Shown here: piece by piece, positions 18,879 to 22,832 of the stretch
Layout: each line of letters starts with the position of its first letter
How positions within the stretch are numbered: the stretch's first letter is position 1
Source: Microbacterium testaceum StLB037
GTDB taxonomy: Bacteria; Actinomycetota; Actinomycetes; Actinomycetales; Microbacteriaceae
Length of the DNA: 64,000 nt
NCBI RefSeq assembly: GCF_900104345.1
Contig: NZ_FNJN01000003.1
Coordinates: forward strand, 248,001-312,000
Direction of reading: 5' to 3'
The notes under the pieces: model-generated
The model's input: the letters and a program-made list of their open reading frames with translations, nothing else
What the model was told of the DNA's origin: nothing
Database searches by the model: none
Made by a program: the position numbers and the translations under genes

Positions 18879-19919
18879 TCAGGCGTCGGTGGAGGTGTAG
18901 TCGCGCGGAACGGTCGGCGACACGCGCAGCGCGATCTCCTCGCCGATCGTGTCGATCAGTTCGGCCAGATCGGTCGCCGTGTGCAGAGCCGCGGGACCGA
19001 ACAGGGCGATCTCGTCGCCGGGCTGAGCGCCCCACGGGGCGAGCACCGTCTCGGTCGCCGCGATCGCCTCGACCCGTCGCGGCCCCCCGGGGGTGACAAC
19101 GTCGAATCGCCCGCCCAGGGCGCTGGGCAACCCGTGCAGACTTCCGAGGTCGAGGTGCACGCCCGCGGCATCCACCGCCGTCACCGTGGCCGACAGCGTC
19201 GCGATCGGCTCGATGCCGAGCTCCCGCTCCCCCGGGCCGCCGGCGGGACGGATGCCGTACGAGAACGCCCCGACCCGCACGATGTCTTCGCGGAACTCGT
19301 CGCGCGCGAACCCTGCCGCACTGGCGGCCAAGTGCGAGAAACGCGGGTCGAGCCCCGCGGCGCGCGCCGTCTCGCGCGCGGCCAGGAACACCGCTCGGGC
19401 GTCGTCGTCGTCGGCATCCGAGGCCTCGGAGATGTGCGACCAGATCCCCTCGAAGGCCACCCGGCCCGCGGTGACGAGCTCCGAGGTCTGCGCGAGAGCG
19501 GCCTCCCATCGTTCGGGACGGATGCCGTTGCGGTGAAGGCCCGTGTCGATCTTGAGGTGCACGCGCGCGGGCCGGTGGGCCTCGAGCCGGGACAGGTCGT
19601 CGAGGAGCGCTTCGTCGCCGATGCCCAGGTCGAGGTCGGCCGCGATGCCCGCGGCCAGATCGTCGGATCCGCCGATCAGCCACACGAAGATGCGCACGTC
19701 GGGACCGGCGATGCGGCGAACGGCCGCCCCGGTGACGACGTCGAAAGCGCCGATCCAACGGATGCCCTCCGCGACGGCCCGCGTCACGATCGGCTCCAGA
19801 CCGTGGGCGTAGGCGTCGTCCTTGACGACGAGCATGTGCGCCGCGGGGGCCACGGCCTCTCGCACGCGACGGAGGTTGCGAGCGAAGGCGTCGAGGTCGA
19901 CGCGGTAAACGGCGCTCAC
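18879..19919 (-). CDS. Alanine racemase-like protein with PLP barrel and degenerate C-terminal domain
   Basis: A 346-residue fold-type III PLP protein. The TIM-barrel domain is complete and begins YRVDLDAFARNLRRV, with the PLP-binding Lys33 in VVKDDAYAHG (canonical VVKADAYGHG). The C-terminal domain keeps the family ending TIGEEIALRVSPTVPRDY, but the segment that should hold the catalytic Tyr (SYG) instead reads LDLGSLHGLP. In alanine racemases each active site uses Lys from one subunit and Tyr from the other. The gene directly upstream, overlapping by four bases, has that Tyr but lacks the barrel. I infer that the two products form a hetero-oligomer. It could instead be a racemase for another amino acid or a regulatory PLP protein. 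Confidence 0.8.
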   Translation of the reverse strand: MSAVYRVDLDAFARNLRRVREAVAPAAHMLVVKDDAYAHGLEPIVTRAVAEGIRWIGAFDVVTGAAVRRIAGPDVRIFVWLIGGSDDLAAGIAADLDLGIGDEALLDDLSRLEAHRPARVHLKIDTGLHRNGIRPERWEAALAQTSELVTAGRVAFEGIWSHISEASDADDDDARAVFLAARETARAAGLDPRFSHLAASAAGFARDEFREDIVRVGAFSYGIRPAGGPGERELGIEPIATLSATVTAVDAAGVHLDLGSLHGLPSALGGRFDVVTPGGPRRVEAIAATETVLAPWGAQPGDEIALFGPAALHTATDLAELIDTIGEEIALRVSPTVPRDYTSTDA

Positions 19920-20566
19920 GCGGTCACCCGCCGATCGGCGCGGACGCCCACGACGGCGACGATCTCGGCGGCACCGAGCCCCGTGGCATCCGTCCACTCC
20001 TCGAGCGAGGGGTGCCCCTCTGCGGGGTCGCCGAAGTAGACGACCTCCGCTCCGCGCGGCACAGCGGCGTGCTCGACGTCCACGACGCAGACGTCCATGG
20101 CCACGCGCCCGACGATGCGGTGCCGGCGCCCATCGATCGCGACCGTGGCGGCGTTCCCGAGCGAGCGCACCACGCCCTGCGCGTAGCCGCCGGTGACGAG
20201 GGCCACGGTGGTGTCGTGAGGAGCGCGGTGCGTGTAGCCGTACGAGACGCCCTCGCCGCGCAGGAGCGGCTTGATTCCCAGAGCGCGTCCGCGCAGCGAC
20301 ATCACGGGCTGTGCGTGCGAGCCGGGCAGGCCGAACAGGACCGCTGCGTCGAGGGGCGCGGCATCCATCCCGAGATCCGAGAGCACGGATGCCACCCACT
20401 CGGCGCCGTGCCCCCACGCGTCGGCGGCGAGAACGTCGTCGGCGCCACTCGCGGTGCCGGCGGCGAGGGCGAGGGGCGCGTTGCGACGCAGGGCCGATTC
20501 GGAGACGAGGGCCACCGGGGCCACTCCGCCGGCCGCGGGCAAGCGGGCAGGGAGCGTGGAGGTCAC
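19916..20566 (-). CDS. Alanine racemase C-terminal domain protein with vestigial N-terminus
   Basis: A 216-residue protein made mainly of an alanine racemase C-terminal domain. It has GEGVSYGYTHR with the catalytic-type Tyr109, then VTGGYAQGVVRSLGN and VGRVAMDVCVVD, all close to the canonical enzyme. The first 90 residues are a shrunken remnant of the barrel: SALRRNAPLALA resembles the opening, and VLAADAWGHG matches VVKADAYGHG with the PLP Lys replaced by Ala47. It cannot bind PLP in the usual way alone. Its stop overlaps the start of the next gene, which has the Lys and barrel. The GTG start lies six bases after TAGTCT, suggesting leaderless transcription. Confidence 0.82.
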   Translation of the reverse strand: MTSTLPARLPAAGGVAPVALVSESALRRNAPLALAAGTASGADDVLAADAWGHGAEWVASVLSDLGMDAAPLDAAVLFGLPGSHAQPVMSLRGRALGIKPLLRGEGVSYGYTHRAPHDTTVALVTGGYAQGVVRSLGNAATVAIDGRRHRIVGRVAMDVCVVDVEHAAVPRGAEVVYFGDPAEGHPSLEEWTDATGLGAAEIVAVVGVRADRRVTA

Positions 20567-20610: not shown

Positions 20611-21633
20611 ATGCCTCAACAGGGTTTCTCCCCCGTCACACGCCTGCGTTACCTCGCCGGGCGGGCCCGCCGCATCGACGTCGGATCCGTCGTCGAACGA
20701 GCCAAAGAGGCCTCCGCGCAGCACGGCAAGGCCCTGCCACTCGTCGTCGCGGACATGCTCTTCCAGGCCGGTGTCAAGAACGTCGGCTTCCAGGACTACA
20801 TCGACTACGACTTCGCGATCCTCACCCCCGCCGAGCGCGCGACGTACATGACGCACCCGGTCTCGAACCAGATCTCGCAGAAGTACGACCACCCCGACTA
20901 CCGCGGCCTGTTCCAGGACAAGGTCGAGTTCGACAAGACCTTCAGCGAGTTCCTCCGTCGTGACTGGATGGTGGTGGATGCCGGCAACGCCGACGAACTG
21001 CGCGCCTTCACCGAGCGCCTTGGAACCATCGTCACCAAGGAGCCGGTCGGTCAGGCCGGCACCGGCGTGCACCGGTATCACGCGGCCGAGGTCGACGACT
21101 GGAGCGCCTTCCACCGCGGACTGCTCGAGCGCGGGGAGATCCTCGTCGAAGAGGTCATCCGCCAGCACGACGACCTCGCGGCCGTCTGCCCCGGCACCGT
21201 CAACACCACGCGCGTCACCGCGTTCTTCGACGGACAGAAGACCCACATCCTCGCAATGGCGCAGAAGTTCGGCCGCGGCGCGGTGAGCGACCAGATGACC
21301 TTCGGCGGCTTCTACACGATGCTCGACGAGAACGGCCATGCGCTCGGCGCCGGCTACGACTCGCACGGTCACGTGCACGAGCTGCACCCCGACTCGGGCG
21401 TGCGCATCGCCGACTTCCAGCTGCCGATGATCGACGAGGTGAAGGCGTTCGTCGACCAGGTCGCCCGCGTCGTCCCCCAGGTGCAGTACGTCGGTTGGGA
21501 CATCGTCGTCGGCCCCGACGGCCCCGTACTCGTCGAGGGCAACTGGGGCGCCGGTGTCTACGAGAACAAGCCGAGCGTGACCGGAATCCGCACCGGGCAC
21601 AAGCCGCGCTACCAGGCCGCCATCGGGTTCTGA
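20611..21633 (+). CDS. ATP-grasp protein related to sugar-transfer-associated ligases
   Basis: A 340-residue soluble protein that I assign to the ATP-grasp group associated with sugar-transfer/exopolysaccharide loci (ATPgrasp_ST type). Features seen are the segment VTKEPVGQAGTGVHRY, the strand EILVEEVIRQH, MTFGGFYTMLDENG, and the metal-binding end GPVLVEGNWGAGV with Glu and Asn. Such enzymes activate a carboxylate with ATP and join it to an amine or thiol; neither substrate nor product can be read here. It stands alone between the divergent racemase pair and a strong terminator. The divergent promoter shared with the racemases hints at a cell-wall role, but this is weak evidence. Confidence 0.72.
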   Translation: MPQQGFSPVTRLRYLAGRARRIDVGSVVERAKEASAQHGKALPLVVADMLFQAGVKNVGFQDYIDYDFAILTPAERATYMTHPVSNQISQKYDHPDYRGLFQDKVEFDKTFSEFLRRDWMVVDAGNADELRAFTERLGTIVTKEPVGQAGTGVHRYHAAEVDDWSAFHRGLLERGEILVEEVIRQHDDLAAVCPGTVNTTRVTAFFDGQKTHILAMAQKFGRGAVSDQMTFGGFYTMLDENGHALGAGYDSHGHVHELHPDSGVRIADFQLPMIDEVKAFVDQVARVVPQVQYVGWDIVVGPDGPVLVEGNWGAGVYENKPSVTGIRTGHKPRYQAAIGF

Positions 21634-21645
21634 TCCCAGATGCCG

Positions 21646-21678
21646 AGAGGCCCGTCCCCCGCGTGGGGGCGGGCCTCT
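21646..21678 (+). terminator. Terminator of the ATP-grasp gene
   Basis: AGAGGCCCGTCCCCC and GGGGGCGGGCCTCT pair around a short loop, 12 bases after the stop. Confidence 0.8.
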
Positions 21679-21792
21679 GCTGTATTCCGTCGGCGCGAAA
21701 GATGCTCACTCCCTCGGTCCCCCGCCCGGTGGCGCGCGGCGTGAACACCTACCGGGGCCGCGTGGTGAGTACGCCCCACACGCCGCAGCCGC

Positions 21793-22020
21793 GCGTGAGT
21801 GTCGCGAGCCGTTCGTTTGCCGCAAAGGGCCGCCGGAAGTGGCCGGTGGCGTGCATTTGCGGCACATGAAAGTCGTGCGCTGCGTGAGCGCCGCGGGCCG
21901 TTCGTTTGCCGTAAATGGGCGCCTGGAGTGGCCGGTGGCGTGCATCTGCGGCACATGAGCGCCGTGCGTGGGCGCCTCGAGCCGCTCGTTTGCCGCAAGT
22001 GGGCGCCCGGCGGGGCCGTC
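21793..22020. repeat. Three tandem copies of an 84-89 bp element
   Basis: This fills most of a 500-base gene-free gap (21634-22133). Copies start at 21793, 21882 and 21966, with offsets of 89 and 84 bases. Each opens GCGTG(A/G)G, then has TCGTTTGCCGCAAA or a close variant. Copies 1 and 2 continue GTGGCCGGTGGCGTGCAT(T/C)TGCGGCACATGA (in two parts); copy 3 decays after about 50 bases. Within a copy, TTTGCCGCAAA and ATTTGCGGCA are inverted relative to each other, so each copy can fold. On the minus strand copies read ATGTGCCGCA, the same first ten bases as the DUF2277 gene in this window. No intact coding frame spans the array. The rest of the gap (21679-21792) shows nothing I can name. Confidence 0.75.
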
Positions 22021-22087
22021 GCCGCGCAACCGGGGCGAGACATCTGGGTGACGGGCGCGGGCGGTTGGGAGGCGGCATCCGGGAACG

Positions 22088-22123
22088 CGAGAGGCCCGCC
22101 CCGAGAACGGGACGGGCCTCTCG
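22088..22123 (-). terminator. Terminator of the rpoD operon
   Basis: A 15-bp stem, CGAGAGGCCCGTCCC on the minus strand with one wobble, around a GTTCTC loop, 11 bases downstream of the CofE-like stop. Confidence 0.8.
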
Positions 22124-22133
22124 ACGAGGTGTC

Positions 22134-22828
22134 TCAGGTGTGGCGCACGATGCCGAGCGGCGTCGACTCGTGGCCCTGACCGAGCGGGTTGTCCTTGAGG
22201 ATCGCGACGAGGCGCTTCTCGCCGGCCTTGTCCATCGTCGAGCCGAGGATGTTGCCACCCAGGTCGTTGATGTCGACCACGGCCACCTGCAGGTCGCCGC
22301 CGAGCAGCGACTTGAGGCGGGCGGCCACCTCGCGCGGACGCTCGGGTCCGAGCACGACGGCCTGGTTGTACGGCGGGATCGTGCCCTTGGTGGGGCCGTC
22401 GATCGCGCGCGCCTTGTCGCCGGCGATGCGGTAGAAGTCGCCCTTGCGTCCGAACGCCTTGGTCACGGCCGAGACGGCCGCGGCGAACAGGATGCGGGGC
22501 GTTCCGCACTCGCGCAGCGCCATCTCCATCGTCTCGGGCATGCCGAGACCGATGCCGTAGGGCGTGCGGGTGACGTACTTCGACAGGAAGAGCGCGAGCT
22601 TGCGGGGCTTGATCGTGTCGAGCTTGAACGACCGGCCCTGCGTGATCGCGACGATCTTCTCAGTGACGAACAGCAGGTCGCCCGGCTGCACGGCATCCTT
22701 CGCGTACTCGAGGATGAACGCGTCGAGGTCGTCGCCCGGCATGACGACCCGCGTGCGGATCGGGATGCGGGCGTACGACGTGCCCTCGACGGTGACGGTG
22801 AGCGCCTTGCCGGCGTTGGCCTCGCCGC

Positions 22829-22832
<4 letters not shown>
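22134..22832 (-). CDS. Coenzyme F420-0:L-glutamate ligase-like protein (CofE/FbiB-N superfamily)
   Basis: A 232-residue protein resembling the F420-0:gamma-glutamyl ligase fold: [14 protein letters not shown] near the start, [15 protein letters not shown] with the characteristic Glu-Lys, and [17 protein letters not shown] with Asp/Asn metal ligands. CofE uses GTP to add glutamate to F420-0. Here it is a stand-alone ligase domain without the FMN-dependent domain of FbiB, and no other F420 gene is in the window, so a different acceptor is possible. It overlaps the rpoD stop by four bases and shares its transcript. That coupling to the principal sigma factor is unexplained. Confidence 0.75.

Follow-up and report, generated by a model that had tools for sequence, protein, structure and literature searches.

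In the genome of Microbacterium testaceum StLB037, two genes of the alanine racemase (Alr) family overlap on the minus strand, and each of them has lost a part of the active site that the other one retains, which raises the question of whether the two products work together as one enzyme and, if so, on which amino acid. Alanine racemase is a textbook homodimer and a drug target. The window, i.e. the whole stretch of 64,000 nucleotides that was analysed (contig NZ_FNJN01000003.1, positions 248,001 to 312,000), contains the following features, where up is the upstream and dn the downstream gene of the pair:

18879..19919, minus strand: dn gene, the Lys-half, with a complete barrel and K33, a C-domain without the SYG strand, and Glu327 at the Tyr354 position
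19916..20566, minus strand: up gene, the Tyr-half, Ala_racemase_C with Y109, M157 and D158, a residual ADAWGHG motif, no PLP Lys and little barrel
19916..19919, minus strand: overlap of up and dn by four bases (up stop, dn start), seen in the sequence
20240..20242, minus strand: codon of up Tyr109, the catalytic-type Tyr
20426..20428, minus strand: codon of up Ala47, at the PLP-Lys position
19821..19823, minus strand: codon of the PLP Lys33 of dn
18939..18941, minus strand: codon of dn Glu327, the substrate-specificity position (Tyr354 of Bacillus Alr)
20611..21633, plus strand: divergent ATP-grasp gene (ATPgrasp_ST), the proposed partner ligase
22134..22832, minus strand: CofE-like (F420_ligase) gene, usually accompanied by the ATP-grasp gene at the site between SigA and the pair

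The pair has complementary half-sites and overlapping genes, co-occurs across genomes and is under purifying selection. According to the reading favoured here, to which a probability of about two in three is given, up and dn would form an obligate heterodimer with one composite site, which would racemise a diamino acid, probably ornithine, for group B peptidoglycan. The two proteins would be different subunits of a fold-type III racemase with one working active site: dn would contribute the barrel, PLP and Lys33, and up would be a stripped-down partner whose C-domain contributes Tyr109, Met157 and Asp158, residues that come from the other subunit in ordinary alanine racemases. Up and dn are predicted to bind each other as in the Alr dimer, and the second, unused site would have decayed on both proteins. 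Glu327 of dn, in place of the alanine-restricting Tyr, should favour a substrate with a side-chain amine, and the D-ornithine produced would enter the bridge of group B peptidoglycan, probably via the neighbouring ligase-type genes.

Complementary half-sites of up and dn

The coordinates of the pair, its orientation, the overlap and all key residues were confirmed in the sequence. Up has 216 and dn 346 amino acids; the start of dn was taken at 19919, the start of the overlap, and the listed open reading frame reaches 20417 via an earlier GTG. In up, a barrel stub precedes the C-terminal domain, and the PLP-lysine motif of this stub has Ala for Lys (Ala47 in VLAADAWGHG); Tyr109 lies in the motif VSYG, and Lys33 of dn in VVKDDAYAHG. 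Only Ala_racemase_C is found above the Pfam cut-off in up (E 3e-30), and dn gives a full-length match to Ala_racemase_N (E 1e-44) and has a C-domain remnant below the cut-off; the Ala_racemase_N and Ala_racemase_C domains required of an Alr are present only in up and dn jointly. Both proteins score below the TIGR00492 equivalog cut-off of 168 bits (up 97.9, dn 114.4), and the other Alr of the genome reaches 274.3. The single-chain structure model of dn (pLDDT 93.5, pTM 0.91) superimposes on a Streptomyces alanine racemase over its whole length (Z 40.8, rmsd 1.7, 344 residues, 32% identity), and model and alignment give dn the features of the fold-type III PLP racemase superfamily, namely a (beta/alpha)8 barrel, a C-terminal beta domain, the PLP Lys, Arg219, Ser204 and Tyr43. 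The loss of the Tyr from dn is due to deletion of its strand and not to a point change. A preliminary description of the locus had assigned Tyr109 and an Ala at the Lys position to up, which is borne out by sequence, Pfam and alignment; its view that dn has a full barrel with Lys33 and has lost the SYG Tyr holds as well, and so does the four-base overlap, which lies at 19916-19919.

The comparison was extended to 72 Microbacteriaceae loci with two racemase open reading frames near ParE/DUF7455, which were retrieved from 100 family and 59 genus genomes; they were picked by matches to the proteins of the window and are hence a non-random sample, in which no two loci have identical DNA. Together with the window, they give 73 aligned pairs. 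Residues are numbered after Bacillus Alr, a numbering that we assume from the positions of the motifs. In the alignment, Tyr265 and Met312 are present in 73/73 up proteins and Asp313 in 70/73 (Asn in three), and Lys39, Tyr43, Arg136, His166, Ser204 and Arg219 are each present in 73/73 dn proteins, all of which lack Tyr265. The PLP Lys and the catalytic Tyr are thus on different chains in 73 of 73 pairs. In one up protein (L147), the Lys column is occupied by K amid degenerate surroundings; the up proteins of L119 and L150 are nearly full length (363 and 389 aa) yet have already lost the Lys, and by their sequences appear to resemble intermediates. In an alignment-free motif test, all 73 up proteins have the Tyr motif without the Lys motif, and 72 of 73 dn proteins the Lys motif without the Tyr motif; the exception, L120, is a regex miss, with the Lys present in the alignment. 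Both motifs are carried by 14 of 14 ordinary Alr proteins, of which only the Tyr is informative, because they were chosen by the Lys motif (16 of 30 candidates skipped).

Of 65 further loci (named ones, relocated ones and ones taken for comparison), 44 contain the exact split; ten of these 44 are repeats (nine are identical in DNA to first-set loci, and L199 repeats L197). Among the remaining loci, seven have one intact Alr and two, from Clavibacter, have two; the Lys motif only is found in four single His-type paralogues and in one dn cut by a contig end, and neither motif in three loci (two fragments, one His-type). L264 is a regex miss, and dn of L287 has a coincidental SY motif at another position. 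In two Microbacterium records, L224 and L234, the dn frame is broken; a sequencing error is likely, since parC of L224 also matches in two pieces. Taken together, the comparison lends strong support to complementary half-sites that would act as one enzyme.

Co-occurrence, selection and relatives of the pair

In the genus sample, the pair is present in 48 of 59 genomes (46 with both open reading frames in the fetched loci, window included, together with G122 and with G143, which is cut by a contig end), and neither gene is present in the other 11. The two genes do co-occur across genomes, on which the preliminary description had made its proposal depend. All 11 genomes without the pair retain a match of the ordinary Alr type (a partial one in G145, 81% complete), and two of them, G111 and G147, have an additional intact racemase paralogue. 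They are scattered over several separate places on the ParE tree, and therefore up and dn appear to have been lost together, repeatedly. Absence of the pair from the ParE locus was at first equated with its absence from the genome, which is wrong for L195, L235 and L247/M. schleiferi, where a whole-genome search found the pair elsewhere; this search left out L218, L222 and L248, and L209, L226 and L238 are cut inside or beside dn. A separate full-length alr, for which a survey had been proposed, is present elsewhere in the genome of the window; the pair is therefore probably not the source of D-alanine, and this role is disfavoured.

The geometry of a four-base overlap is available in 65 of the 72 locus pairs. 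Median dN/dS values among 12 sequences are 0.28 for up, 0.22 for dn and 0.08 for ParE; both genes of the pair are under purifying selection, with values about three times that of ParE. The reciprocal loss that had been proposed is matched by reciprocal retention, which is exact in the 73 pairs, in genes that are both kept by selection. A mirror-tree comparison of up and dn gave a partial r of 0.55 given ParE (n = 71, calculated without permutation test).

Relatives with an intact active site are found in tandems of two racemase genes at another locus in the 12 genomes looked at (L127-L138). The first copy has Tyr (11) or Trp (1) at position 354, and the second copy, t2, has Asp (8) or Glu (4) and keeps both the Lys and Tyr265. 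In a tree of the barrels, dn proteins and the 12 intact second copies share a branch that is separate from ordinary Alr (support 0.994), within which 59 dn proteins (55 Glu, 4 Asp) group with the four Glu copies (support 0.995) and 15 Asp-type dn proteins with the eight Asp copies (support 0.84). The tree gives no clean Glu/Asp split, as the Asp-type dn proteins of L119, L146, L149 and L150 fall into the group on the Glu side. Since dn and the acidic intact copies share one branch, the acidic residue probably predates the split, and since the intact copies are nested among dn proteins, the split may have occurred more than once or been undone. Other racemase paralogues, most of which have Phe for Tyr43, carry His or Gln at position 354; they were seen in L139, L141, L142, L143, L155, L156, L159, L165, L293, L294, L297, L299 and L300.

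The same design is also found away from the ParE locus. Genome G077 has a second pair, made up of adjacent genes for a Lys-half with Tyr354 kept (L145:6765-7874) and a Tyr-half (L145:5992-6765); it shows no ordinary full-length Alr, and dn is its only other strong Ala_racemase_N match. In G020, G073 and G049, a Lys-half and a Tyr-half are one open reading frame (L158:5793-7679 in G020; L154:5348-7210 and L157:6073-8052), in which a second, Tyr-bearing C-domain comes after the Lys-half that lacks the SYG strand; the fusion of L157 is also joined on to TsaE. The fused frame of G020 (L158) is the sole match to up and the sole strong Ala_racemase_N match in this genome (3e-56, the next being 3.5e-18) and is therefore probably its essential alanine racemase; additional racemase-like matches are present in G073 and G049. 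The fused chains support the proposal less than the split pair does, because they might be ordinary homodimers with a decayed insert. The L158 fusion was also tried as a stand-in for the heterodimer in a single-chain AlphaFold model (pTM 0.68), in which the PDB matches span from the barrel to the second C-domain like one ordinary chain; the model is uninformative on the pair, because its alignment mixed in ordinary Alr rows that favour such a fit.

Position 354, the wall locus and the substrate

In ordinary Alr, Tyr354 restricts the enzyme to alanine. This position is acidic in 73 of 73 dn proteins (Glu in 54, Asp in 19) and Tyr in none. According to the excerpted text of one study, the Tyr354 position controls the specificity of Alr, and Asp or Glu at this position cut alanine racemisation in one Alr (PMC4517790). 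In lysine racemase, the equivalent residue is Thr391, which, in a docking model, touches the amine on the D-Lys side chain; in the excerpts of the study concerned, 53% of the Lys activity is left in the variant T391Y, and the authors give more weight to Ser394 for specificity (PMC3485190), so that position 354 alone is a weak predictor of the substrate. The small Thr or Ala of lysine and broad-spectrum racemases is replaced by Glu or Asp in dn. R130-N131 of dn is comparable to Arg173-Asn174 of lysine racemase; as the ordinary Alr of the genome has R-N too, these residues do not discriminate. The acidic residue, the wall setting and the intact homologues turn the new PLP enzyme, which had been offered as an alternative to the heterodimer, into a prediction, namely a diamino-acid racemase.

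Of the named loci fetched, a M. testaceum record (L243) comes closest to the window by ParE and other genes. Species names were taken from one scan that was meant to be pair-neutral. Among the best 80 of the matches listed, the pair is present in records of M. galbinum, M. testaceum, M. maritypicum and M. hydrocarbonoxydans and also of stercoris, salsuginis, jejuense, yannicii, resistens, aoyamense, aurantiacum, kyungheense and luticocti; it is also found in a record of M. schleiferi and in a Homoserinimonas MAG. Glu is present at position 354 in the pairs of M. galbinum, M. testaceum, M. maritypicum, M. hydrocarbonoxydans, M. schleiferi and Homoserinimonas. In the excerpts of the cited reports, the wall of M. 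galbinum contains D-Orn, M. testaceum belongs to cluster IV, with D-Orn except for M. enclense, and M. maritypicum and M. hydrocarbonoxydans to cluster V with D-Orn (PMC10757982); Orn is given for M. schleiferi (PMC10978784) and d-Orn for the genus Homoserinimonas (PMC7033078). Asp is found at this position in intact copies from Herbiconiux and Clavibacter, and also in pairs from Leifsonia and Humibacter; the Herbiconiux copy is L127, with coordinates identical to those of the named Herbiconiux genome. The excerpts list D- and L-Dab for the genus Herbiconiux (PMC10011130) and Orn and DAB for Leifsonia and Humibacter (PMC6346192). M. albopurpureum, a species outside the genome set compared, has been reported with L-ornithine.

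Nine genomes searched whole lack the pair, namely those of M. paulum, M. oleivorans, M. pullorum and six others, one of which is labelled Stenotrophomonas. The L-Lys side of the correlation is thin, as M. paulum is the only pair-less named genome within the M. lacticum clade, which we take to have L-Lys walls. The contigs L205, L218 and L235 are labelled Stenotrophomonas, Candidatus Microthrix and Planococcus and have Microbacterium-type sequence; labels or binning look wrong. Rathayibacter and Plantibacter have DAB walls, and their genomes searched here contain only ordinary Alr and no acidic paralogue. The same holds for the Cryobacterium genome searched, and excerpts of one report give DAB for this genus (PMC7033078), which rules out dn-type genes as a marker of all DAB walls; the acidic racemase is therefore not the sole route in the family. 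Overall, the correlation between pair and wall type is coarse, as it covers few species, mostly by statements on the genus or cluster and not on these strains. Ornithine is the likeliest substrate, because D-ornithine walls are reported for species with the pair, and the indirect evidence points to a diamino acid, likely ornithine.

The genes next to the pair are of the ligase type. MurT/GatD acts on the alpha-carboxyl of D-glutamate in lipid II, the starting point of the group B bridge. In 129 distinct complete loci, counted whether they have the pair or not (after removal of nine repeats; 137 before), the site between SigA and the pair (window 20611-22832) holds the ATP-grasp and CofE-like genes in 72 and MurT- and GatD-like genes, named from Pfam and from NCBIfam matches far below their cut-offs in one example, in 50; five have the CofE-like gene alone, two have neither and none has both systems, i.e. 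the two replace each other across genomes. Because the ligase-type genes are also present in loci without the pair, they mark the wall locus and not the pair. The ATP-grasp gene was rejected as a constant companion: it is missing within the stretch in 19 of 77 distinct Microbacterium-type pair loci, some of them incomplete (21 of 85 before repeat removal), and MurT/GatD-like genes hold the site in 16 of 72 distinct complete ones (18 of 79 before). M. schleiferi (strain FXH-192) has the pair at a site apart from ParE, where it is lined up with a TauD-family gene and a second ATP-grasp gene, a relative of that of the window. The TauD-family dioxygenase (L287:3245-4225) heads this relocated ATP-grasp/up/dn row; as a guess, it might be the glutamate hydroxylase of hydroxyglutamate-containing walls.

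It is unlikely that a heterodimer with one site acts on something other than ornithine, for instance on alanine as a backup, on lysine, on arginine or on a broad range of substrates. Only residue 354, which by itself is not decisive in lysine racemase, and the coarse wall correlation point to ornithine; however, the exchange of Tyr354 for an acidic residue in 73 of 73 pairs is a change that lowers alanine activity in the one Alr studied, an ordinary alr is present in the genome of the window, and each of the 11 pair-less genus genomes has a match of the ordinary Alr type, accompanied in G111 and G147 by the further intact paralogue.

Alternative partners, known systems and meaning

An Alr that has lost Tyr265 can become able to catalyse other reactions. 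This, the confident fold of dn by itself and its match to whole Alr chains (Z 40.8, 344 residues) would suit a dn that works alone as another PLP enzyme, e.g. a D-amino-acid aldolase, decarboxylase or transaminase, with up as a scaffold or relic; such a role is improbable, as up is kept at exactly those residues that the other subunit gives to the Alr site, is under purifying selection and is absent together with dn. The full-length Alr encoded in the same genome could in principle serve each half as a partner instead of the other half, which is highly improbable given that up and dn are adjacent, overlap and are gained and lost together, and that in G077 a related Lys-half stands beside a Tyr-half in a genome whose only other strong Ala_racemase_N match is dn. 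Functionless, degenerating duplicates, as might be suggested by the loss of most of a domain in up, by dN/dS values above that of ParE and by the broken dn frames of L224 and L234, can practically be dismissed in view of dN/dS values of 0.22-0.28, catalytic residues kept in 73 of 73 pairs and a conserved overlap.

The proposed heterodimer shares with the homodimeric Alr (TIGR00492) the fold, the PLP site and the two-base layout of Lys and Tyr, in which the Tyr comes from the partner subunit; it differs in that two separate genes encode the Lys and Tyr sides, a single site remains, Glu replaces Tyr354 and both proteins are below the TIGR00492 cut-off. The racemases Lyr, Bar and Bsr have the Alr fold with the Tyr354 position replaced as well, and accept basic amino acids according to the excerpts of one report (PMC3485190), but Lyr and Bar are single-gene homodimers with Thr (Lyr) or Ala (Bar) and not Glu, and the three are not the nearest relatives of the pair by sequence. 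Closer to dn are the intact t2 copies, e.g. of Clavibacter and Herbiconiux (twelve in the tree), which share the acidic residue and the branch of dn but carry both Lys and Tyr on one gene. Prozyme-type heterodimers, such as LCB1/LCB2 of serine palmitoyltransferase and AdoMetDC/prozyme of trypanosomes, resemble the pair in that a paralogue with no catalysis of its own completes its partner or activates it, and differ from the pair in their folds; we know of none in the Alr family. In Enterococcus faecium, an aspartate racemase and an ATP-grasp D-Asp ligase likewise combine a racemase gene with a nearby ATP-grasp gene that puts a D-amino acid into the wall bridge, but the racemase belongs to an unrelated family and the bridge position is different.

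No prior description of a heterodimeric alanine racemase in Microbacterium was found in the open-licence PMC literature, as judged by titles and abstract openings, nor was a named racemase for the D-ornithine or D-diaminobutyrate of group B walls found in this literature. New beyond the preliminary description are the acidic residue at position 354, its sharing with intact single-gene relatives, the ligase-type neighbours and the occurrence in species reported to have D-ornithine walls. More tentatively, the pair could be the first obligate two-gene heterodimer of the Alr family, with a single composite site that makes a D-diamino acid for group B walls, governed by a one-residue code common to the intact relatives (Glu for D-ornithine, Asp for D-diaminobutyrate), and the same design of Lys-half and Tyr-half could have arisen in an apparent alanine racemase itself, split in G077 and fused in G020.

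If the heterodimer exists as proposed, a natural Alr divided into complementary half-sites would show in a clear-cut way how paralogues can subfunctionalise within a single active site. The pair also provides a specific candidate for the enzyme that supplies D-ornithine, and perhaps D-diaminobutyrate, to group B cell walls, and the peptidoglycan type could become predictable from sequence.
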